From Treponema brennaborense (GTDB lineage Bacteria > Spirochaetota > Spirochaetia > Treponematales > Treponemataceae): a stretch of 64,000 nt of DNA. Every line of letters begins with the position of its first letter. Positions within the stretch are counted from its first letter, which is position 1. A program made the translations under genes and the position numbers. The stretch lies in contig JAMPCJ010000004.1 of NCBI GenBank assembly GCA_023666275.1, positions 1 through 64,000 of the forward strand, given 5' to 3'. This document shows positions 36,719 through 47,675 of the stretch, in pieces. A model generated the notes under the pieces. That model was not told the DNA's origin. It was given only the letters and a program-made list of their open reading frames with translations, and ran no database searches.

Positions 36719-38365
36719 ATGAAAACACTTGTCATTCTGAATGCCGCATTTGTTTCTTCTTTCGCGTGTGAACGCGTATTCGGCGGAAAATCCGCTGTGG
36801 AACGCAGCCTTGAATGGGCGCGCACCGTTCCGAACTGCGCCGGCGCTGCCGTGCTCGTTTCTTCCGAAAATCCGCATGCGGATCATATCCGCGCCGTAGC
36901 CGAAAATGCCGGAATTCCCGTTCAAATAACCGAACAAAATTTGTGGACAATGCCGGTGTTTTTCGCGCAGATAAAGCAGCTTGCCGAAGGTTTTGACGCC
37001 GTTGCGTACGCGTATGCGGATTGTCCTTTTTACGACGCCGATATTACCGAAAAATTGTATGATGCCTTGAAAAAATACGCCGCGGAATACTGCTTTGCCG
37101 ACGGATACCCGTACGGCGTTGCGCCGGAATTTCTCGATGCGGGACTTGCCGGAATTCTTTCCGCATTGTGTGCCGAAAAATTCGCCGATTCCGGCAAACC
37201 GATAGAACGAGATGCGGTTTTTTCGCTGATGAAAACCGACATCAATTCATTTGAAATCGAAACCGTCATCGCGCCGCATGATTTTCGTTATCTGCGGCTT
37301 AATTTCTGCTGCGGAACAAAACGGGATTTTCTGCTGTGCCGCCGTTTGTTCGAAAAATGCGGCGGCGCTGTTTCCTGCGACGATTCCGAACGGGATATAT
37401 GCAGAATCGCCGAATCGGATCCGATGTGCCTGCGGACGCTTCCCGCGTATTACGAAATACAGCTGGCTTCTTTTTGTCCCGGAACGTGCACGATTTGTCC
37501 GTATCCCGCGGCGTATCTGCAAAAAACGGGACACCTGCCGCATGAAGCTGCCGCCGAAATGTCCATGCCGTTCGGCCGTTTTGCGGAGCTCGTTTCGCGG
37601 ATTGCCGATTTTTCCGGCGATGCGGTTATTTCTTTGTCCGCCTGGGGCGAACCGTTTGCGCACCCCGACATAGAAAAATGCATCGCGGAAGTGCTGCGTT
37701 TTCCGTCTTTGTCGCTCGTAATCGAAACATGCGGATACGGCGTGAATGATGAAGCGCTTTCCCGCATTGCGGATGTTTGCTCCGCGGCGCTGCCGCGCAG
37801 GAACGGCCTGCCGCCGATTATTTGGATTGTCGGCATCGATGCCGCCGACGAATCCATGTACCGCCGTCTTCACGGAGAAAATTCCGATATGACGTTCGAA
37901 AAAGCGCACAATCTTGCGGAAAAGCTGATGCGCTGTTTTCCCGAAAGCGTATATCCGCAGTTTGTCCGCACGACAATCAATGAAGAACAGCTTGAAGCGT
38001 TTTACCGCTGCTGGCGGTCTTTTTCCGTTTCTGCCGAAAATCAGTCCGGCGATCGAAAAAACGGAAAGCTTATCGTTCAAAAATACAATAGTTTTTCCGG
38101 CTTGCAGCAGGATTTGCGTCCCGCGGATTTAAGTCCCATCCGGCGCTTTCCGTGCTGGCATTTGCGCCGCGATATGGTTATACTTGCCGACGGAACGGTG
38201 CCGCTGTGCAAAAACGCGCTTCTTTCCGGATTCGGCGGCAATGTTTTTGCGGATTCGCTTGAAAATATTTGGAAACGATCGGAACCGACGTTTTGCGCGC
38301 ATATGCAGAGCACGTATAACGGAATATGTGAGAAATGCGATGAATACTATACCTTTAACTTTTGA
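36719..38365 (+). CDS. Spiro-SPASM protein: radical SAM/SPASM enzyme with nucleotidyltransferase-like N-terminus
   Basis: 548 aa. The radical SAM cluster motif is C253-x3-C257-x2-C260 (SFCPGTCTICPYP). The C-terminal SPASM region carries C479, C497, C526, C537 and C540 (ending GICEKCDEYYTF), able to hold extra iron-sulfur clusters. Residues 1-230 resemble a sugar nucleotidyltransferase (AYADCPFYDADITEKLYDAL) but lack its GxGxR-type NTP loop. This matches the spiro-SPASM family, known only from spirochetes and without known function. Radical SAM/SPASM enzymes usually modify peptides or proteins, or act on sugars. Its end overlaps the glycosyltransferase gene by 26 nt, and it starts a plus-strand operon reaching to the GerMN gene. 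Confidence 0.85.
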   Translation: MKTLVILNAAFVSSFACERVFGGKSAVERSLEWARTVPNCAGAAVLVSSENPHADHIRAVAENAGIPVQITEQNLWTMPVFFAQIKQLAEGFDAVAYAYADCPFYDADITEKLYDALKKYAAEYCFADGYPYGVAPEFLDAGLAGILSALCAEKFADSGKPIERDAVFSLMKTDINSFEIETVIAPHDFRYLRLNFCCGTKRDFLLCRRLFEKCGGAVSCDDSERDICRIAESDPMCLRTLPAYYEIQLASFCPGTCTICPYPAAYLQKTGHLPHEAAAEMSMPFGRFAELVSRIADFSGDAVISLSAWGEPFAHPDIEKCIAEVLRFPSLSLVIETCGYGVNDEALSRIADVCSAALPRRNGLPPIIWIVGIDAADESMYRRLHGENSDMTFEKAHNLAEKLMRCFPESVYPQFVRTTINEEQLEAFYRCWRSFSVSAENQSGDRKNGKLIVQKYNSFSGLQQDLRPADLSPIRRFPCWHLRRDMVILADGTVPLCKNALLSGFGGNVFADSLENIWKRSEPTFCAHMQSTYNGICEKCDEYYTFNF

Positions 38366-39302
38366 CGAACGGCAGATATCCCGCGCCGTTTTCGGCGGAA
38401 CACGAAATCATGAAGATTCGCGCCTTCCGTTTTCCGTCATTGTGCTGAATCAGGGAAACAGGCGCTACCTTTCGCGGTGCCTTGAAAATTTGACTCAGTG
38501 CAGCTTCGATTCGATTGTCGTGGTTGAAAGATCCGATAAAAATTTCAGCACGGAACTGCTTTCTCAGCAGTTTCCGTCCGTCGTTTTTATTATTCCGCAG
38601 GAACCCGTAACGATAGGCGACTGCGTGAATATCGGCATGGAAAAAATACATTCCAGCCATGTGCTTGTGCTGCAGGATACGGTGCATTTTTCGCCGACTA
38701 TGATTTCGGAACGGATGGCCGAACGCATAATGCAGATGGAAAAATTGTGCGTGTGTCCGCTGCTGCAGTCTTCGGCGCATCAGAATTTGCCGGTGAAAAT
38801 GTTTCCGTATATCGAAAAAAACGTGCTGAGCTTTTCTCCGGAAATGGCAGTCAGCGAAGGCTCTCCGACCGCATATCCGTTCGATTATATCGGCGTGTAT
38901 GACCGCCGGAAATTTATTGCTTTGGGCGGATACGATTACACGATTACGTCGCCGTACTGGCAGAATCTCGATTTTTCCCTGAGGGCATGGCTGCGGGGCG
39001 AAGCGTTTGTCATCATGCCTTCGTTCAGAATCGGATACGAAGAAGAATTATCTCCGGAAGACATGACGGTAGACGAATCGCATTTTCGTTTTTTCCTGAA
39101 AAATCTGGCGCCGCGCTTCAAAAACGGTTATGCGTACATTCCCATAAGCAGTTTTTTTTCGTATCTGCGCCGCTCGTCGCACGGCATGCTGAATTCGCGG
39201 CGGGAATTTTCCGATGCCCGAATCTGGGTCAAAAAAAACCGTTTCGCGTTCAAGACGGATATTGTCTCGCTTATTAAAAATTGGGAAACAGCAGCGAAAT
39301 GA
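38340..39302 (+). CDS. GT-A-type glycosyltransferase-like protein
   Basis: 320 aa. Residues 30-250 have a glycosyltransferase family 2-like fold: FSVIVLNQGNRRYLSRCLEN, FDSIVVVERSDKN, then ITIGDCVNIGMEKIHSSHVL-like core with VLVLQDT at the position of the usual DxD, and FDYIGVYDRRKFIALGGYDY. The DxD is reduced to QDT, so activity needs caution. The ATG at 38340 is within the spiro-SPASM gene, and its stop overlaps the next start (ATGA), so three genes are translationally coupled. It likely transfers a sugar made by the neighbouring enzymes (inference). Confidence 0.72.
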   Translation: MNTIPLTFDERQISRAVFGGTRNHEDSRLPFSVIVLNQGNRRYLSRCLENLTQCSFDSIVVVERSDKNFSTELLSQQFPSVVFIIPQEPVTIGDCVNIGMEKIHSSHVLVLQDTVHFSPTMISERMAERIMQMEKLCVCPLLQSSAHQNLPVKMFPYIEKNVLSFSPEMAVSEGSPTAYPFDYIGVYDRRKFIALGGYDYTITSPYWQNLDFSLRAWLRGEAFVIMPSFRIGYEEELSPEDMTVDESHFRFFLKNLAPRFKNGYAYIPISSFFSYLRRSSHGMLNSRREFSDARIWVKKNRFAFKTDIVSLIKNWETAAK

Positions 39303-41866
39303 CGATTCTTGTTGTGCAAAGCAGGCTTGCTTCTTCCCGATTATACAGAAAAGCCTTGCTGCCCCTCTGCGGAAAACCGCTGCTTGCCTGGACGCTTGAC
39401 GCGATGAAACTCGTGCCCGCCGACCGTTATTTTTTGGCGACGGACGATGGTTCCGCGCCGGAACTGTTCCCCGTGGCGCGCGAATGCGGCTGGGAATGTT
39501 TCGCGGGACCGCAGGATGATGTCCTTGCGCGGTTTTGCCTGCTTATTCGGCACTGCGACGAACAGGGATTCCATCCGGATACGATTATCCGCGCTACGGG
39601 CGATAATCCGTTTTTGTTTTATGAGGCTGCCGCCGCGCTCGCAAAACAGTTCGAGGCGTACAAATCCGGCGGCGTCCGCTGCGATTATATGACCTGGACC
39701 GGTTTGCCGCACGGAAGCGGCGTCGAAATTTTTTCGGCGGATTCGCTTCTTGCTGCCCGGAAATTAACGGAAGATCCGTACGATCATGAACATGTCGGTC
39801 CCGCGCTGTACAATCATCCGGAGCGTTTTGCCGCCGTGATGCTGCCGTCTCCCGCTCAATGGAATTATCCCGCGCTGCGGACAACGGTTGACACAGCGGA
39901 GGATTACCGCCGTGCAGTCCGTCTTGCGAAAACGCTTTTGCAGCATAATTCAAGCGATTCGAATAATTCTTCTGCGGCAGTAAAGCCTTTTCCCGCCGAG
40001 CAGATTATACGCGCGGCAGCGTCCCCGTCCGTTGCTTATCCGGTGTTATGTGTTCCGTCCGTAAAAAAAGGGCAGGGAACAGGGCATTTGCGGCGCTGTC
40101 TTTCCGTCGCCGAGGAAATCTGCGCCGATATTTTTATCGATGATGCTGTTTGTACGCTTACGGGCGTTGCGGAAACCGCCGCTTGTTTCCGTTTGGATTC
40201 ATCGCAGATTATCGGCAGACTTCCTGCGGCGCACTCCGATACTGCCGCGATTTATTCGAGCGTTTTGTGCGATATGTGCCGGCTGACAAAAACCGAAGCA
40301 GCCCGGCTTTCGGCAATTGCGCCGGTTATCGCTTTGGACGAAGGTTCTTCGCATACGGATTATTGTGATTATCTTCTTGATATAATTCCGCCGAAAAAAC
40401 AAAAACGGCGTGCGAATTTGAATTATCCCGCTTTTATTCCGCTGCCGGAACACAAAAAACAGTCCGGCGCTGTTTTTTCGGTGCATCCGTCGGTACTTGT
40501 TGCGGTCGGCGGAGAAGATCCCGCAAATCTCTCGATTCCCGCTGCGAACGCATTTGCTGCGGCGGGCTGCGATGTAACGATGATTTCCGTGAATCCCGCC
40601 GCGTGCAGCGAGCGTGCCGATGCCGCCGTAACGGTGATTGAACCTGTCGGCTGTCTGCGCGAGCAGCTGTACAAGTATGATATTGTCGTAACTCATTACG
40701 GATTTACCGCGTTTGAAGCGCTTGCCGCCGGCTGCGCGGTTGTTTTGCTCGCAACGTCGAAAGTCCATCGAAAGCTGTCCGCAGCGCACGGATTTGTGTG
40801 CCTTGAAAAAAAACGGCTTGCAGCGCGGCGCGTCAAAAAGCTGCTTTCCCGTCCCGAATCGCTGTATAATCCCGTTTTTGCCGCAAAATTCTCCGAACAG
40901 CCGAAATCCCTTGCGGAATACGTGCTCCGTCTTTCTTCCGGAAAAAAATACCGCTGCCCGATCTGCGGAAAAATCGCCGCTGCCGCCGCCGATAAAAAAA
41001 ATGCGCCCGACGCCGTTATCGCCCGTTCTGCGGAAAAAACGTACCGCAGATGTTCCCGCTGCGGTATTGTGTATCTTTCCTGGAGCATGCAGGAAGAACA
41101 AAACTACGATAAAAATTATTTTTTCGGCGCATACCGAAAGCAATACGGAAAAACCTATCTTGACGATTTTTCCCATATACGGCAGCTCGGACGCGATCGG
41201 ATGCGGGAAATATCGCGGATTTTTGCGGGGCATTGCGCGCGCTCGCCGCTGTCCGGAAAAATATCCGCGCACGATGCAAAACCCGCCGTTCTCGATGTCG
41301 GATGCGCGTACGGTCCGTTTCTCGCCGCGGCAGACGAAGCCGGCTGGCAGGTTTTCGGCGCCGATGTATCGCAGGACGCGGTTTCGTATATAACCGAAAC
41401 ACTCGGATATCCTGCGGTGTGCGCCGATTTTACGGAAGCGGATATTTCTGCCGCATTCGGCCGCAGCAAATTCGATGCGGTTGCAATGTGGTTCGTTATC
41501 GAGCATTTTCCGAATCTGCGAAGCGTGCTTGATTCGGTGTCGAATCTTCTTCCTTCCGGCGGAATATTCGCGTTTTCCACGCCGTCTGCTTCGGGAATTT
41601 CGGCGCGGTGCTTTCCTGCGTCTTTTTTCGAAAAAAGCCCGTCGGATCATTTTACGGTCTGGTCTTTGCGCGCCGCCAAAAAAATACTTTCCGAAAACGG
41701 CTTCATCGTGAAAAAAATCATTTCGACGGGGCATCATCCCGAACGCTTCCCGCTGGTCAAAAATCATCCGCCGAAAACGGGTGGACTGCCTGCGCGCTTT
41801 TTGGGTATAATAAGCAGACTGTTCCGTCTGGGCGATACGTTTGAAATATACTGCGTAAAGCGGTAA
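39299..41866 (+). CDS. Three-domain fusion: SpsF-like cytidylyltransferase, PseG-like nucleotide-sugar hydrolase, SAM methyltransferase
   Basis: 855 aa. Residues 1-215 match SpsF/CMP-sugar synthetases (VVQSRLASSRLYRKALLPLCG, RATGDNPFL, TVDTAEDYRRA). Residues 245-545 resemble PseG, the UDP-sugar hydrolase of pseudaminic acid synthesis (KGQGTGHLRRCLSVAEEI with the catalytic His, and VTHYGFTAFEALAAGCAVVL). Residues 551-592 are a zinc ribbon (CPICGK ... CSRCGIVYL). Residues 600-855 are a class I methyltransferase with VLDVGCAYGPF (664-674). The first two activities belong to nonulosonic acid pathways; the third would methylate the sugar or its carrier. Start ATG overlaps the preceding stop as ATGA. 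Confidence 0.85.
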   Translation: MTILVVQSRLASSRLYRKALLPLCGKPLLAWTLDAMKLVPADRYFLATDDGSAPELFPVARECGWECFAGPQDDVLARFCLLIRHCDEQGFHPDTIIRATGDNPFLFYEAAAALAKQFEAYKSGGVRCDYMTWTGLPHGSGVEIFSADSLLAARKLTEDPYDHEHVGPALYNHPERFAAVMLPSPAQWNYPALRTTVDTAEDYRRAVRLAKTLLQHNSSDSNNSSAAVKPFPAEQIIRAAASPSVAYPVLCVPSVKKGQGTGHLRRCLSVAEEICADIFIDDAVCTLTGVAETAACFRLDSSQIIGRLPAAHSDTAAIYSSVLCDMCRLTKTEAARLSAIAPVIALDEGSSHTDYCDYLLDIIPPKKQKRRANLNYPAFIPLPEHKKQSGAVFSVHPSVLVAVGGEDPANLSIPAANAFAAAGCDVTMISVNPAACSERADAAVTVIEPVGCLREQLYKYDIVVTHYGFTAFEALAAGCAVVLLATSKVHRKLSAAHGFVCLEKKRLAARRVKKLLSRPESLYNPVFAAKFSEQPKSLAEYVLRLSSGKKYRCPICGKIAAAAADKKNAPDAVIARSAEKTYRRCSRCGIVYLSWSMQEEQNYDKNYFFGAYRKQYGKTYLDDFSHIRQLGRDRMREISRIFAGHCARSPLSGKISAHDAKPAVLDVGCAYGPFLAAADEAGWQVFGADVSQDAVSYITETLGYPAVCADFTEADISAAFGRSKFDAVAMWFVIEHFPNLRSVLDSVSNLLPSGGIFAFSTPSASGISARCFPASFFEKSPSDHFTVWSLRAAKKILSENGFIVKKIISTGHHPERFPLVKNHPPKTGGLPARFLGIISRLFRLGDTFEIYCVKR

Positions 41867-41878
41867 TGCAGGAAAAAA

Positions 41879-43492
41879 ATGAAACATATTCTGATACTTG
41901 GCGCCGGATTTATGCAGAAACCGGCTTTCGAAGCTGCGCGCGAACTCGGCTGTTTTATAACCGCTGCGGACGGAAACCCGAACGCCTGCTGCGCTGCGCT
42001 CGCCGACCGCTTCGAGCCGATTGACTTAAAAGACACGGAAAAACTGCTTGCGCTTGCGTATTCCATGCGTGCAGGCGCCGGAATCGATGGTGTTTTTACC
42101 GCCGGCACCGATTTTTCCGCGGCTGTCGCCCGCATTGCGCAGGAATTGCGCCTTCCGGGGCATTCGTATGAAGCAGCGCTCGATGCGTGCGATAAAATCA
42201 GGATGCGTTCCCGTTTTGCCGCCGCCGGCGTTCCGTCCCCGCGTTTTTTCTGCGCCGACGCATCTTTTTTGAATTCCGGCGCGGAACAGCTGCTCGCCGC
42301 TTCCGGCTTCGATTCAGACAGCTTTCCCCTCGTCGTAAAACCTGCCGACAATATGGGCGCGCGCGGCTGCCGCATGGTTTGTTCTGCTGACGATCTGCTG
42401 CCGGCGCTGAAAGATGCTGTCGGCTATTCGCGCACGCAAAGAGCTGTCATCGAAGAATATATGGACGGCAGGGAATTTTCGATTGATGCGCTTGTATATA
42501 ACGGAAAGATAACGATAACGGGATTTGCGGACCGCCATATTTTTTATCCGCCGTATTTTATCGAAATGGGGCATACCATGCCGACGGATATCGATCCCGA
42601 AACATATAACGCATTGGCAGAAACATTCCGTGCCGGCGTGCGGGCGCTCGGACTGACATGCGGTGCGGCAAAAGGCGATGTAAAACTCACGAAAAACGGT
42701 CCGATGATCGGCGAAATCGCCGCGCGCCTTTCCGGCGGATACATGTCCGGCTGGACATATCCGCTCGCATCCGGCGTTCCGCTTACCGCTTTGGCACTCC
42801 GTATTGCGCTCGGACTGGAATTGCCTGCGGAACTTTCCGGAACATCGCTGCCGTGCGAAAAATACAGTGCGGAACGCGCCTGGGTGTCTGTTCCCGGAAA
42901 AGTGCTCTCCGTGCACGGTTTGGAAGCCGCCGCTGCCGTGCCGTCCGTGCGGGAAGTTTTTCCGCGTTCGAACCCCGGCGATGCCGTCTGTTTCCCGCGC
43001 AGTAACGTCGAAAAATGCGGCAACGTAATTGCCTGCGCCGAAACACGGCACGACGCGGTGCTTGCCGCCGAAAAAGCCTGCGCTTTGATTCTGCTCCGCC
43101 TTGCGCCTGACAATCCTTCGACAGACGCGTTTTTGCGCGCGCCGCTTTCGGAGCATTTTCCGCCGCCGGCTTTCCGGCTTCCGGAATCCGATGCCGAAAA
43201 TTTTTCTTCATGGCTGAAAAGCGCGGAATCCGCCGGAACGAGGCTTTCGGCTTCCGTTCCGCCGGAAAAGCAAATCCCGCCGATGCTTTTCGCGGCTGCT
43301 TCCTCGCTGCGGGACTGGAACGGCAGAACCATGCGGCAGACGCTGGAACAGTTTTCTTCGTTTTTCCCCGAAAGCGGCTGCGGCGCCTTTCCCGCGGCGG
43401 CGTTCTGGAAAGCGCTTGTCCGCGGCGGCATTCAGGGAATTTTGTATATTGCGGACACGATTTCCGCACGCGGCGGCAGCTTGAATATATGA
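41879..43492 (+). CDS. ATP-grasp carboxylate-amine ligase-like protein
   Basis: 537 aa. The N-terminal pre-ATP-grasp fold (MKHILILGAGFMQKPAFEAA) and the ATP-grasp core (FPLVVKPADNMGARGC, VIEEYMDGREFSIDALVY, GEIAARLSGGYMSGW) are clear and resemble PurK/carbamoyl-phosphate-synthase-type ligases. About 150 C-terminal residues have no recognisable domain. Such enzymes join a carboxylate to an amine using ATP. In this operon it could couple an amino acid or acyl group to the sugar, comparable to ATP-grasp enzymes in other glycan clusters (inference). AGGA lies 6 nt before the ATG. Its stop overlaps the amidase start (ATGA). Confidence 0.82.
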   Translation: MKHILILGAGFMQKPAFEAARELGCFITAADGNPNACCAALADRFEPIDLKDTEKLLALAYSMRAGAGIDGVFTAGTDFSAAVARIAQELRLPGHSYEAALDACDKIRMRSRFAAAGVPSPRFFCADASFLNSGAEQLLAASGFDSDSFPLVVKPADNMGARGCRMVCSADDLLPALKDAVGYSRTQRAVIEEYMDGREFSIDALVYNGKITITGFADRHIFYPPYFIEMGHTMPTDIDPETYNALAETFRAGVRALGLTCGAAKGDVKLTKNGPMIGEIAARLSGGYMSGWTYPLASGVPLTALALRIALGLELPAELSGTSLPCEKYSAERAWVSVPGKVLSVHGLEAAAAVPSVREVFPRSNPGDAVCFPRSNVEKCGNVIACAETRHDAVLAAEKACALILLRLAPDNPSTDAFLRAPLSEHFPPPAFRLPESDAENFSSWLKSAESAGTRLSASVPPEKQIPPMLFAAASSLRDWNGRTMRQTLEQFSSFFPESGCGAFPAAAFWKALVRGGIQGILYIADTISARGGSLNI

Positions 43493-44526
43493 AACACGCT
43501 TTTTTCGGTTTCTGCCTGATTTTTCCGCTGATTTTTTTCCCGCTGCCGGCATTTGCGGAATCCGAAAACGAATCGGCGATCCGGCAGTTTGCGGAATCCG
43601 CAGGCGCGTATTTATACTGGGACACGCTTGCAGGCCGCGGCTTGCTTGAAAAAGACGGACACACGCTGTCATTCTGCATCGATAATCCGCTTATTATGCT
43701 CGACAACCGAAAACTCGCGCTGGTTTCGCCTCCGATCCGAAAAAACGGCGATATTTTCGTATCCGAAGATTTCCAGAAAACGGCGCGGGAACTCTTTTCC
43801 GAATCAAAGCCGCTGCCGTCTTTCGATGTCGGCGCTGTCGTAATCGATGCCGGACACGGCGGAAAAGATCCCGGAGCCATGGAAAAACACAAAATAAACG
43901 GAAAAGAAATAACGGTTCGGGAAAAAGACATCACGCTTGCCGTCGCAAAAGAATTGTATGCACTGCTGAAAAAAAAATATCCGTCAAAGCGCATTATGCT
44001 TACCCGCAGCACCGATACCTATCTTTCGCTTGAACAGCGCGTCGATATTGCGAATTCCGTGCGCCTTGCCGAACACGAAGCGGTTTTATATATTTCGATT
44101 CATGTAAACGCAGCCTTCGACAAAAAAGCGTCCGGCTTTGAAGTTTGGTATCTCAGTCCCGGCTACAGACGCACGGTTATCGACGGATCTCATAATGTCG
44201 ATCGGGATGTGCTGCCTATACTGAATTCGATGATGGAAGAAGAATACACGACGGAAAGCATTCTCCTTGCGAAATTCATACTGGATGCGCTTTCTGCGGA
44301 AGTCGGCGCGAAAAGCCGCGGCATAAAACAGGAAGAATGGTTCGTCGTGCGCAATGTCAATATGCCGAGCGTTCTTATCGAAGTCGGATTTCTCACAAAC
44401 TACGAAGAAGCCTGTCTGCTCGCGGATGCTGCGTACTTGCGCAAATTGGCGTCCGGCATTTATAATGGAGCGGTTTCTTTTATCAGCCATTTTGAACGAT
44501 CCAGAGGATTTACGGGAACACACTGA
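43489..44526 (+). CDS. Exported N-acetylmuramoyl-L-alanine amidase (Amidase_3)
   Basis: 345 aa. A signal peptide ends at AFA (residue 23). The Amidase_3 zinc hydrolase spans about 118-340: VVIDAGHGGKDPGA (first His), REKDITLAVAKELYALL (Glu), YISIHVNAAF (second His) and VLIEVGFLTNYEEA (catalytic Glu). It cuts the amide between muramic acid and the stem peptide. The start at 43489 overlaps the ATP-grasp stop. Its place just before flaA hints at a role in fitting periplasmic flagella into the wall, or in cell separation (inference). Confidence 0.9.
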   Translation: MKHAFFGFCLIFPLIFFPLPAFAESENESAIRQFAESAGAYLYWDTLAGRGLLEKDGHTLSFCIDNPLIMLDNRKLALVSPPIRKNGDIFVSEDFQKTARELFSESKPLPSFDVGAVVIDAGHGGKDPGAMEKHKINGKEITVREKDITLAVAKELYALLKKKYPSKRIMLTRSTDTYLSLEQRVDIANSVRLAEHEAVLYISIHVNAAFDKKASGFEVWYLSPGYRRTVIDGSHNVDRDVLPILNSMMEEEYTTESILLAKFILDALSAEVGAKSRGIKQEEWFVVRNVNMPSVLIEVGFLTNYEEACLLADAAYLRKLASGIYNGAVSFISHFERSRGFTGTH

Positions 44527-45005
44527 TGATGAAAAATATATTGGGAACCGTCGTTTCCGCTTTTAATTTAAAAGGAATTGTGTGCGCCGCGCTGCTGTTC
44601 GTCTGCGCCGCTGTGTCTGTTGTCTGCTTTGTCTGCGGCGGGCAGGGCACCCGCAGAATATTTTTGTTCGAAAATTTCGATAAAGCCGGTTTGTTTATCG
44701 AAAACCGCTTTGTGCCTGCCGCCGCAGGAACGCATCCGGCTGTTCCGTTTCTCCGCGAACTTGTGCTCGGACCGGTCGGAGATCGCTTCGTGCGCCTGTT
44801 TCCGCGCGGAACAACGATAAATACCTGCTTTGTCCGCGGACAGGATTTGTACATCGATTTGTCGAAAGATGCGCTGTCTTCCGATCCCCGCGCGTCGGCT
44901 TCCCGCGATGCGTGCGAAATCCTCAAAAAGAATGTCTTTAAAAATTTCCGCGGCATTACGGCGGTTCACATATATATTGACGGCAAAAATGCCTATGACG
45001 GCTGA
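44526..45005 (+). CDS. GerMN-domain membrane-anchored protein
   Basis: 159 aa. One membrane segment (about 17-39) and a GerMN domain: PFLRELVLGPVGDRFVRLFP, TTINTCFVRGQDLYIDLSKD and ITAVHIYIDGKNAYDG. The domain occurs in sporulation and lipoprotein-like envelope proteins and often accompanies amidases. The start shares one base with the amidase stop. A second ATG follows directly (44529). Spirochetes do not sporulate, so it probably serves the cell wall or flagellar assembly. Confidence 0.8.
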   Translation: MMKNILGTVVSAFNLKGIVCAALLFVCAAVSVVCFVCGGQGTRRIFLFENFDKAGLFIENRFVPAAAGTHPAVPFLRELVLGPVGDRFVRLFPRGTTINTCFVRGQDLYIDLSKDALSSDPRASASRDACEILKKNVFKNFRGITAVHIYIDGKNAYDG

Positions 45006-45090: not shown

Positions 45091-46302
45091 ATGAAGAAGA
45101 CATTTAGTTTAATTGTTTCAGCTTTCCTGCTCGTGGGAACGTTCGTCTTCGCCGAGGAAGCGGCAATTATTGATTTTACCAGGCTTGAGCCGGATTGCAT
45201 TGCGGAAAAGAATGCAGACGGAACGGATAAAACTAACGAAAACGGTGAAGCGGTATATCAGGAGCATAAGCGGACGCTTGTCGATTTTGCGGATGTTGCC
45301 GGTTCGTCATTTACGAATGAACAGAAAGGTCTTATGAAAACATCTCTGGCGCTGCGCAATTGGGAAGTCGTTCTCAATTCTTCCGCCAGGACCCCGCTGA
45401 GTGTTTCCGCATCTGTCGTAAAACCGGCGTATGTGCGCACACAGAAACCCGGCGCAGACGGCGAAATGGTTGACGTAAAAGTCCGCTCCGGCGTCGGCGA
45501 TGTTGTCGGCAAATATGTGATGGGCGTGCGCGTGTCGTTCCCTGTCGCGGCTGTCAATGCGAATGCCCGCATCCAGCCTTCGTTTGAAATTCCCGCATAC
45601 GACGCAATGAAAGTTTTCGATGAAAACGGCGATGCGGTGGAAATGACCGATGAAGAAAAAGTACAGTATGCCGGAAAAACACGTTTCGAATACATTGCCG
45701 CTCTCGACGGAAACGAACAGTCCGAAGACAGCGAAGAGGAAGTTCCGGTCGGCTACGGTGTTGTGAAAAACGTCGGAACAATAAAGTCTCTCGCCGTAAC
45801 AACGCTGTGCATGAACTTTCCGCATTCTTTGTACGTTATTTTGAAAGATACGGACAATGTCGAACGCCAGTATTTCATGGGACATTTGGATGAAGGACGC
45901 GATGACTGGGCAAGACTTGTATGGAACAATCCGTCTTATATCAGCGATGTTCGTGCCCGCGAAATCCGCCTTGTGCCTGTGTATCCGCGCGGTCTGCCGT
46001 TTGTAAAATTCGTCGGTTTCAAAATCGCCCGCGACGGTTCGAAAGCCGGCGGTGATTTTATCGGCTATTTCAAAGATGTAAAGATTATTTACGACAAAGC
46101 GGTGCTGGTAACGGAACGCGATATTGTCGATGAAGACCTGTGGGGAATTGTCGGCGACCGCGAAGCTGAAAAGCAAGCCTATGAAATGTCGCGTTTCGGC
46201 GAAAAACAAGTTGAACGCTACATTGAAAATGTAAACAAAGCTGTTCAGAGCGGTTACACAAAGAATCTCGGTTCTTATGATGATGAATCAGCTGCAGAAT
46301 AA
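45091..46302 (+). CDS. flaA: Flagellar filament outer layer (sheath) protein FlaA
   Basis: 403 aa. Signal peptide MKKTFSLIVSAFLLVGTFVFA, then a mature FlaA domain (VGKYVMGVRVSFPVAAVNAN, GTIKSLAVTTLCMNFPHSLY, RLVWNNPSYISDVRAREIRL). FlaA is exported by Sec and coats the FlaB core of spirochete periplasmic flagella. AAGGAG lies 7 nt before the ATG, with its own promoter and terminator. The insert EQSEDSEEEVPVG is acidic. The position after the amidase-GerMN pair fits the order I remember from other treponemes. Confidence 0.95.
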   Translation: MKKTFSLIVSAFLLVGTFVFAEEAAIIDFTRLEPDCIAEKNADGTDKTNENGEAVYQEHKRTLVDFADVAGSSFTNEQKGLMKTSLALRNWEVVLNSSARTPLSVSASVVKPAYVRTQKPGADGEMVDVKVRSGVGDVVGKYVMGVRVSFPVAAVNANARIQPSFEIPAYDAMKVFDENGDAVEMTDEEKVQYAGKTRFEYIAALDGNEQSEDSEEEVPVGYGVVKNVGTIKSLAVTTLCMNFPHSLYVILKDTDNVERQYFMGHLDEGRDDWARLVWNNPSYISDVRAREIRLVPVYPRGLPFVKFVGFKIARDGSKAGGDFIGYFKDVKIIYDKAVLVTERDIVDEDLWGIVGDREAEKQAYEMSRFGEKQVERYIENVNKAVQSGYTKNLGSYDDESAAE

Positions 46303-46412: not shown

Positions 46413-47675
46413 ATGCCGGATATAAAAAATCATATATTGCCTGACAGAGATAAATTGCGTGCGGCATACGATGCTTATAAACCGTCGCTGCAGACTGTTT
46501 TATCTCAAATAGAACGTTCCGTTCTTTCTGCTTTGCATTTGGTATCTATGCCGTCATTCAAAAGCAGAGTCAAGAATTTTGACAGTTACTATCGAAAGCT
46601 TTTGCGGATTAAGCCGGATTCTATCGGCCGTTCCGAATTTCCTGTGCTGACAGATTTGCTCGGCATCAGAATAATATGTGCTTTTTTGGAAGATATAGCA
46701 TCCGTTGAAAAGCAGATTGTGCAGGCATTCGATGTTGTGGAAATCGAGCGCAAGGGAGCCGACAGAACATTCAGTGAATTCGGGTATGAATCGGTTCATA
46801 TTTTGATAAAAATTCCCCCGCAGACAGTGCTTTCGAATTCCGAACAAACATTGCCGCCTGACCTTGTCTGCGAAATTCAAATTCGAACGATTTTACAAAA
46901 TGCCTGGGCGGAAGTTGAACATGAGCTTGTATATAAATCGGAATTTTCTCCGTTCGATTTGCCGCTTCGCAGAAAACTTGCTTCGATGAACGCAAGTTTA
47001 AGCCTTGCCGATATTGTATTTCAGGAGATCCGCGATTATCAGAATAAATTAAATAAAGAGCTTGACTGCCGCCGTTTCAGTTTTTATGAACAGGCAGACG
47101 CGCTTTCCCAAATACCGGAAACGGCGTCTGAAAAAAGCTCTTCGAAAATCGCCGATGATTTGAATCCTGTTTCGCCTTATGTTCACAGTACTATAGACGA
47201 CCTTATTCTGGAAGCTATTCATGCTCATAACAGCGGCAATATGGATCGGGCTGTCGAAATTTACACTCGCATTATTGAATCGCCGGCAGTACCTAATCCG
47301 ATAGTTCTTTCCGTTATTCATAAGCATCGCGGAATGGCTTTTTTTGCCAAAAATATGTATCAGGAAGCTTTATCCGATTTTCAAAAAAGCATCCATTTCG
47401 ATCAAAAGAATTTCAGATCCTATTATTATGCGGGAATCGTTTTAAGCGTTTTGAATGAATACGAAAAATCTTTGGAATATTTTGATGAATCGCTTAAAAT
47501 AAACGAGTATCAGGCGCATGTATATTACAGAAAATCTTTGTCCGAATATCACCTTGCCGATTATGCCGCAGCGCTTTCCGATCTTAATAAGGCTGTGCAG
47601 CTCGGCTTGAAAAACAGCGATTATGAAAACTTTCAGAAATTGCTTGTGGCAAAACTTGATATGGGAATGAAATAG
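46413..47675 (+). CDS. RelA/SpoT-type (p)ppGpp synthetase domain fused to TPR repeats
   Basis: 420 aa. Residues 35-205 are a RelA/SpoT nucleotidyltransferase: D81 in LTDLLGIRII, FGYESVHILI (123-132) and CEIQIRTILQNAWAEVEHEL (153-172), so synthetase residues are kept. There is no HD hydrolase domain. Residues 255-410 form about four TPR repeats (SVIHKHRGMAFFAKNMYQEA, RSYYYAGIVLSVLNEYEKS). Synthetase-only alarmone proteins normally carry no TPRs; here these may sense a protein partner. No Shine-Dalgarno; the -10 lies 6 nt before the ATG. Confidence 0.88.
   Translation: MPDIKNHILPDRDKLRAAYDAYKPSLQTVLSQIERSVLSALHLVSMPSFKSRVKNFDSYYRKLLRIKPDSIGRSEFPVLTDLLGIRIICAFLEDIASVEKQIVQAFDVVEIERKGADRTFSEFGYESVHILIKIPPQTVLSNSEQTLPPDLVCEIQIRTILQNAWAEVEHELVYKSEFSPFDLPLRRKLASMNASLSLADIVFQEIRDYQNKLNKELDCRRFSFYEQADALSQIPETASEKSSSKIADDLNPVSPYVHSTIDDLILEAIHAHNSGNMDRAVEIYTRIIESPAVPNPIVLSVIHKHRGMAFFAKNMYQEALSDFQKSIHFDQKNFRSYYYAGIVLSVLNEYEKSLEYFDESLKINEYQAHVYYRKSLSEYHLADYAAALSDLNKAVQLGLKNSDYENFQKLLVAKLDMGMK

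Follow-up and report, generated by a model that had tools for sequence, protein, structure and literature searches.

A conserved spirochete gene module joined to flaA as the probable late part of a flagellin nonulosonic-acid pathway

The window analysed here, a stretch of 64,000 nucleotides from Treponema brennaborense, carries at positions 36719–43492 a gene module that probably encodes the later steps in the Maf-dependent O-glycosylation of FlaB with one N-acylated nonulosonic acid of the pseudaminic type, as judged from sequence comparisons and predicted folds. The result is a proposal, worked out gene by gene, for how an unusual flagellin sugar is made in spirochetes as far apart as termite-gut treponemes and the syphilis spirochete.

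Gene organization

Domain profile searches recovered all genes named in the first-pass annotation, on the + strand, in the order given there and followed by flaA:

36719–38365, + strand: spiro-SPASM protein (TIGR04321; alignments; AlphaFold2; structural matches)
38340–39302, + strand: GT-A-fold glycosyltransferase (ATG start 38340; PF10111 below cut-off; AlphaFold2)
39281–41866, + strand: three-domain fusion of cytidylyltransferase, PseG/SpsG-like UDP-sugar hydrolase and SAM methyltransferase (alternative ATG 39299)
39308–39865, + strand: cytidylyltransferase domain of the fusion (CTP_transf_3, PF02348, 88 bits; 6oew, E 1e-11)
40016–40855, + strand: PseG-like domain of the fusion, with GxGHxxR motif (profile match to 3hbm; alignment)
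41270–41707, + strand: class I SAM-dependent methyltransferase domain of the fusion (PF13489, 72 bits)
41879–43492, + strand: ATP-grasp carboxylate-amine ligase with LAL_C2 domain (PF13535 and PF18603)
43489–44526, + strand: N-acetylmuramoyl-L-alanine amidase (Amidase_3), flaA module (PF01520, 169 bits)
44526–45005, + strand: GerMN-domain protein, flaA module (PF10646, 33 bits)
45091–46302, + strand: FlaA, flagellar sheath protein (PF04620, 218 bits)

The spiro-SPASM and glycosyltransferase genes share 26 bp. The amidase gene probably starts at 43489 and not at the mechanically assigned 43210, which results in a 4-bp overlap with the ATP-grasp gene; the GerMN and FlaA genes are separated by 85 bp.

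The run consists of two joined modules. Module 1 (36719–43492) comprises the genes for spiro-SPASM, the glycosyltransferase, the fusion protein and the ATP-grasp ligase, and module 2 those for the amidase, the GerMN protein and FlaA. A gene-neighbourhood comparison, suggested earlier as a check on the glycan-system reading, found the gene order again in almost every family sampled from the class; the order is thus not due to chance, and the reading was not refuted. In two genomes, which we take to be those of T. denticola and T. pallidum, amidase, GerMN and FlaA form a separate three-gene unit. The amidase and the GerMN protein, initially counted among the glycan enzymes, are therefore excluded as such and belong to the flaA module. 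The 349-residue FlaA of the putative T. denticola genome matches TDE1712 (PMC9481697).

Distribution among spirochetes

In a sample of 80 spirochete genomes, spiro-SPASM was found in 67 of the 68 Maf-positive genomes and in none of the 12 Maf-negative ones (Fisher p 2e-13, a value that ignores the kinship of the genomes). NeuB and the ATP-grasp ligase follow the same pattern, the exceptions being G371, with NeuB alone, and G316, with NeuB and no ATP-grasp ligase. The ATP-grasp and methyltransferase domains, encoded in one operon, likewise co-occur with NeuB and Maf, and the ligase is conserved across the phylum. Borrelia-like genomes have kept flagellin and lack spiro-SPASM, Maf, NeuB and the ATP-grasp ligase altogether, which rules out a plain link to flagella and ties the module to glycosylation instead. 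Co-occurrence and neighbourhood together support the initial proposal of a conserved, spirochete-wide glycan module associated with flagellar filaments. The window genome itself encodes flagellins and gives several Maf matches (PF01973, best 104 bits, cut-off 34.6).

Sugar-pathway genes and enzymes of the module

An unusual product had been argued for from the absence of NeuB. This absence holds for the operon but not for the genome, as a Pfam NeuB match (186 bits, above cut-off) lies outside the operon on the same contig; moreover, all the genomes of the class that carry spiro-SPASM and were searched contain NeuB, so that the argument falls away. The synthase scores below the equivalog cut-offs of both NeuB (234 bits, cut-off 400) and PseI (190 bits, cut-off 340). 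The search of the genome for PseB, PseC, PseH, PseI or NeuB, also suggested in the first-pass annotation, yielded besides NeuB a PseB-like dehydratase and a PseC-like aminotransferase (contig C11), with matches under the NCBIfam equivalog cut-offs; such genes were found in the Maf-positive genomes searched. PseH N-acetyltransferase was not found above cut-off in any of 30 genomes, and the putative T. pallidum genome gave no PseH match at all. Because NeuB, PseB, PseC and PseG all remain below their equivalog cut-offs, the nonulosonic acid may be Pse, Leg or another member of this group. A conserved xanthine-dehydrogenase-like trio of genes, without the molybdenum-cofactor motif, adjoins the PseB-PseC pair.

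The glycosyltransferase was placed by fold search, as its PF10111 (GT2) match reaches 20 bits and a PDB sequence-profile search returned nothing at E 0.01. Its AlphaFold2 model (pLDDT 90.7) is a confident GT-A fold, with polypeptide GalNAc-transferases as best PDB fold matches (E 3e-14), a shared fold that does not fix the function. In the fusion protein, the catalytic loop of the cytidylyltransferase domain (RLASSRLYRK) is intact, and the loop is found in 46 of 50 aligned homologues. The middle domain matches TIGR03590 at 18 bits (E 0.0013, cut-off 154) and reaches PseG of C. jejuni by profile (E 1.8e-4).

In deep families the ATP-grasp domain is fused to FMN_dh, an FMN-dependent 2-hydroxyacid dehydrogenase, which points to a 2-hydroxy or 2-keto acid as substrate. 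The distribution of FMN_dh alone was discarded as evidence, since the family is widespread and its occurrence uninformative.

The spiro-SPASM protein and alternative readings

The protein encoded in the window clearly belongs to the NCBIfam subfamily TIGR04321 (533.5 bits over residues 4–548; curated cut-off 250), which is defined by sequence and for which we know of no function; spiro-SPASM is not mentioned by name in the literature searched. A cytidylyltransferase-fold N-terminal domain (about residues 1–235) is followed by a radical SAM domain and a SPASM/twitch-type site. The catalytic loop RxxSxRxxxK is absent from all 179 N-terminal domains aligned, and this domain is, on its predicted fold, a catalytically degenerate cytidylyltransferase. 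The AlphaFold2 model (pLDDT 91.9) has structural matches to 6oew, 4m7t and 5v1s, again shared folds that leave the function unfixed.

Radical chemistry had been put forward as the heart of the system, with spiro-SPASM making a C-C or C-S bond on a sugar; a dehydration or an oxidation of the sugar would fall under the same reading. The window copy has an intact CxxxCxxC motif (C253-x3-C257-x2-C260), GEP and all SPASM cysteines, with a four-Cys site at C479, C497, C537 and C540 (PF13186, 30 bits), and the carbohydrate dehydrogenase BtrN is among the nearest radical SAM folds. However, CxxxCxxC is missing in 78 of the 179 homologues, including those of the putative T. denticola and T. pallidum genomes, with a minimum of 23 changes along the tree, and the gene stays in Maf-positive genomes in spite of this loss. 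With the motif lost in so many members and the SPASM cysteines persisting in 176 of the 179, radical chemistry cannot be the shared function of the family. T. denticola, moreover, makes a known glycan, although its putative genome lacks the motif. We consider it unlikely that a radical modification yielding a new sugar is the point of the operon. A radical SAM origin of the 3-deoxy carbon in the T. denticola acyl group was rejected as a general route, again because the putative T. denticola copy has no CxxxCxxC.

A second alternative is that the target of the module is not flagellin but a polysaccharide or glycolipid of the envelope. NeuB, cytidylyltransferases and GT-A enzymes have roles in surface glycans as well, and in one genome a further NeuB cluster (L208) contains typical Pse genes. 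Nevertheless, the presence of the module tracks Maf, flagellin-less genomes lack it (even the NeuB-bearing G371), and throughout the class it is linked to the flaA operon. It also persists in the putative T. pallidum genome, and T. pallidum is not known to produce a surface polysaccharide, which counts further against an envelope product. This makes an envelope role improbable. A peptide substrate of spiro-SPASM, either RiPP-like or FlaB itself, is suggested by its best structural Z-scores, which are with the peptide-modifying SPASM proteins SuiB (22.5) and SkfB (20.7). It is very improbable, given that the sugar-path enzyme BtrN is nearly tied (21.1), that the operon genes, viewed without a systematic scan for small ORFs, include no evident gene for a precursor peptide, and that the motif loss speaks against any radical role as a conserved one.

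In other spirochetes, the predicted radical iron-sulfur site of spiro-SPASM was lost repeatedly while the rest of the protein was kept. We tentatively suggest, as an idea with somewhat less than even chances, that it is a hollowed enzyme, in which a loop-less cytidylyltransferase is combined with a radical SAM domain disarmed independently in many lineages, and which is retained in flagellin glycosylation for a non-radical task of the SPASM cluster, as scaffold, sensor or electron relay. Together with the xanthine-dehydrogenase-like trio it might form a complex of redox proteins no longer performing the known chemistry of their folds. A radical SAM family that repeatedly lacks the radical cluster and conserves the auxiliary Fe-S site offers a natural experiment on the purpose of the SPASM domain. 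In the literature searched, we found neither a description of repeated CxxxCxxC loss in TIGR04321 nor a paper combining radical SAM, SPASM and pseudoenzyme.

Proposed pathway

In the preferred reading, glycosylation of FlaB with an N-acylated nonulosonic acid, we go beyond the genes, their co-occurrence, the lost motifs and the predicted folds described above and infer in which order and on which substrates the enzymes act, which acyl group this organism uses and what spiro-SPASM contributes. The PseB-like dehydratase and PseC-like aminotransferase would first supply a UDP-4-amino sugar. The ATP-grasp protein, our proposed N7-acyl ligase, would then replace PseH, coupling a free polyhydroxy acid, 2-hydroxy or 2-methoxy, by way of an acyl phosphate to the 4-amine, which becomes N7 in the finished sugar; the 2-O-methyl group would be added by the methyltransferase domain of the fusion. 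Subsequently, the PseG-like domain would remove UDP, NeuB would condense the product with PEP, the cytidylyltransferase domain of the fusion would form the CMP-sugar, and Maf proteins encoded elsewhere would transfer the sugar to FlaB in the cytoplasm. The substrate of the operon's GT-A protein may be FlaB or the first sugar. Spiro-SPASM would be an accessory protein of the pathway, its cytidylyltransferase-like half loop-less and its SPASM half kept by selection. It may still carry out a radical oxidation in the window organism; the T. denticola and T. pallidum proteins, going by their putative genomes, cannot do so, or at any rate not by means of a cluster bound to CxxxCxxC. FlaA is improbable as a target, as the title of Wyss 1998, given in the reference list of PMC13144727, states that flagellins are glycosylated and sheath proteins are not.

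Comparison with known glycan systems

According to PMC9481697, which cites Kurniyati 2017, the flagellin glycan of T. denticola has a mass of 450.2 Da and is essential for filament assembly. The chemistry predicted here (activation as a CMP-sugar, UDP removal, O-methylation and amide ligation, without PseH) fits this published glycan, which argues against the wholly new glycan envisaged earlier. Kurniyati 2017 reportedly gives the detailed acyl structure; mono-N-acetyl-Pse carrying an N7-linked 2-methoxy-4,5,6-trihydroxyhexanoyl group has a computed mass of 450.185 Da, against the published 450.2. The proposed target is the same flagellin group. Spiro-SPASM, glycosyltransferase, fusion protein, ATP-grasp ligase and NeuB are all encoded in the putative T. 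denticola genome, but unlike in the window the genes are spread over several loci and spiro-SPASM lacks CxxxCxxC. No gene assignment for the 450.2 Da glycan was found in the literature searched.

A precedent comes from Shewanella oneidensis, where a flagellin glycan in which mono-N-acetyl-Pse carries an extra C9–C11 group depends on an ATP-grasp protein and a methyltransferase encoded in the sfm cluster; the extension amounts to 236–264 Da, in steps of 14 Da (PMC3765264). Against our proposal, deletion of this ATP-grasp gene left cells motile and shifted the flagellin mass less than other deletions did (PMC3765264). NeuB, methyltransferase and ATP-grasp genes are common to sfmABCDE and the system described here, whereas sfmABCDE has a TPP enzyme and a ketoreductase, no spiro-SPASM described, and no flaA operon joined to it (PMC3765264).

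Relatives of the dehydratase, aminotransferase, hydrolase, synthase, cytidylyltransferase and Maf of the Campylobacter/Helicobacter PseB-C-H-G-I-F pathway are all present here. In contrast to that pathway, an ATP-grasp ligase is found and no PseH above cut-off, NeuB/PseI, PseB, PseC and PseG stay under the equivalog cut-offs, and the cytidylyltransferase, PseG and methyltransferase are fused.

Gene content and conservation of the gene run

The genes that the first-pass annotation had named as a run are all present, on the plus strand and in the order it described:

36719-38365, +, spiro-SPASM protein (TIGR04321, 533 bits against a cut-off of 250)
38340-39302, +, glycosyltransferase (GT)
39281-41866, +, fusion protein (PF02348 cytidylyltransferase, 88 bits; PseG-like domain; class I methyltransferase, 72 bits)
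41879-43492, +, ATP-grasp ligase
43489 (likely start)-44526, +, amidase
44526-45005, +, GerMN protein
45091-46302, +, FlaA

The system is of a known kind, flagellin nonulosonate glycosylation. A gene-level assignment of such glycosylation for spirochetes, as proposed here, was not found in the literature searched, and the spiro-SPASM protein is an unexpected, testable puzzle within it. Adjacent genes overlap or lie at most 12 bp apart as far as the GerMN gene, and flaA follows 85 bp further on. The PseG-like domain of the fusion protein gave a weak match as a single sequence (E 0.0013), and was linked via a family profile to the C. jejuni PseG structure 3hbm (E 1.8e-4); it has a GxGHxxR motif. 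The AlphaFold2 model of the GT (pLDDT 90.7) best matches polypeptide GalNAc-transferases (E 3e-14, TM 0.64 by query), which supports a GT-A fold; by this model the enzyme may transfer to protein, a shared fold being no proof of function. A RelA/SpoT-domain protein with TPR repeats is encoded 3' of flaA (46413-47675), as in most treponemes sampled.

Comparison of gene order in 20-kb neighbourhoods across the families of the class sampled identified a block of spiro-SPASM, GT, cytidylyltransferase, PseG plus methyltransferase, ATP-grasp, amidase, GerMN and FlaA genes common to nearly all families, frequently adjoining xseA and, for many of the treponemes, mutL as well. Treponemes have the cytidylyltransferase, PseG and methyltransferase in one fusion protein, and most other families encode the cytidylyltransferase in its own gene. 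The run is reduced to spiro-SPASM, cytidylyltransferase and PseG in deep families, and Brachyspira-like genomes have spiro-SPASM without the other genes. Two genomes, of the sizes of T. denticola ATCC 35405 and T. pallidum Nichols and presumed here to be theirs (the FlaA of the former has 349 aa, the length of TDE1712), carry two separate units, spiro-SPASM-GT-fusion and amidase-GerMN-FlaA, with ATP-grasp at another locus. The run in the window is therefore a sugar module joined to a flaA module, of which the amidase and GerMN genes are members. The T. denticola flaA gene (TDE1712) is co-transcribed with four genes upstream (PMC9481697).

Pathway genes elsewhere and their co-occurrence

The window's genome has one full-length NeuB (193828-194580 on C13, the contig of the window, 186 bits; L034:10769-11920), beside which no other sugar genes were recognised; a weakly solute-binding-protein-like gene (L034:9870-10763) lies 5 bp ahead of it. 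PseB-like and PseC-like genes form a tandem on contig C11 (L190:5139-7858), and Maf-family transferases and flagellins are present. PseH was above cut-off in none of 30 genomes, with zero matches in the presumed T. pallidum genome. In one treponeme, G206, a typical pseudaminic acid cluster (L208:6447-14757; PseB and PseC above equivalog cut-offs) occurs as a second set, in addition to the conserved PseB-PseC tandem.

Among 80 genomes, spiro-SPASM was found in 67 of 68 Maf-positive and in 0 of 12 Maf-negative genomes (Fisher p 2e-13, a test that ignores phylogeny). Full-length NeuB and ATP-grasp share this distribution, except that G371 has NeuB alone, and that G316, the sole Maf-positive genome without spiro-SPASM, has NeuB and also misses ATP-grasp, a pattern for which an assembly gap spanning the operon is a candidate explanation. 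Borrelia-like genomes have flagellin, and NeuB, Maf, spiro-SPASM and ATP-grasp are all absent; in two of them, searches for PseB and PseC gave trace matches only. The clades without the module (Borrelia-like f6, f12, the f9/g43 group and two f4 genomes) appear to reflect several independent losses.

The spiro-SPASM family

In the AlphaFold2 model of the window's spiro-SPASM protein (pLDDT 91.9), the fold of the N-terminal domain matches the Leptospira cytidylyltransferase 6oew (Z 21.3), also the best match of the operon's real cytidylyltransferase, and the radical SAM part is nearly tied between SuiB (Z 22.5), BtrN (21.1) and SkfB (20.7). The catalytic loop was found in 0 of 179 distinct spiro-SPASM N-terminal domains, versus 46 of 50 neighbouring cytidylyltransferase domains.

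The radical-SAM motif CxxxCxxC is intact in the window's protein (C253, C257, C260) and present in 101 of the 179 homologues; it is missing from 78, including those of the presumed T. denticola and T. pallidum genomes and the four Brachyspira-like genomes examined. Of the 179 homologues, 176 retain all four SPASM cysteines; in two proteins of family f1 (L083, L084; g4) both these cysteines and CxxxCxxC are apparently lost. A tree calculated with the motif columns removed shows at least 23 changes of motif state, and some proteins retain two of the three motif cysteines, as expected from motif decay. Homologues with and without the motif keep their other conserved residues to a similar extent, so the genes lacking it are not pseudogenes. 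CxxxCxxC-dependent radical chemistry therefore cannot be the function common to the family; in the window's organism the protein may have a radical role.

A xanthine-dehydrogenase-like trio

Directly 3' of PseB-PseC lie three xanthine-dehydrogenase-like genes (MoCo-binding-like, 2Fe-2S and FAD), as seen in all 16 genomes of the class examined with an intact tandem (L190:7827-11312 on C11 of the window's genome; L191:7051-10592; L195:1785-5192; L244-L257). In the 16 aligned large subunits, the molybdenum-cofactor motif GGxFGG is absent throughout and the catalytic Glu is variable. Searches for MoaA found none in the window's genome, the presumed T. pallidum and T. denticola genomes, or most trio genomes. 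The trio thus resembles spiro-SPASM in looking like a redox family of this pathway that lacks its usual centre, the second such case.

ATP-grasp and the acyl group

With PseH missing and ATP-grasp accompanying the pathway, ATP-grasp would probably make the N7 amide, activating a free carboxylic acid as an acyl phosphate; the enzyme order and the substrates are inferred. In deep spirochete families (L198, L203, L205) ATP-grasp is fused to an FMN-dependent 2-hydroxyacid dehydrogenase domain, of which a free-standing relative (33% identity, shared Cys-rich start) is encoded in the presumed T. pallidum genome (L045:14841-15722), two genes downstream of the fusion gene and after a HAD phosphatase gene. 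The fusion and the proximity suggest that the partner of ATP-grasp is a 2-hydroxy or 2-keto acid.

For the T. denticola flagellin glycan, Kurniyati 2017 reportedly described a 2-methoxy-4,5,6-trihydroxyhexanoyl acyl group. The residue of mono-N-acetyl pseudaminic acid bearing this group has a computed mass of 450.185 Da. The published T. denticola glycan has 450.2 Da and is essential for filament assembly (PMC9481697). The sfm cluster of S. oneidensis is an independent precedent for ATP-grasp in a pseudaminic flagellin glycan pathway: it encodes, among others, NeuB, an ATP-grasp protein and a methyltransferase, the mono-N-acetyl pseudaminic acid on the flagellins has an extension of 236, 250 or 264 Da, and loss of the ATP-grasp gene gives a smaller flagellin mass shift than loss of the other genes (PMC3765264).
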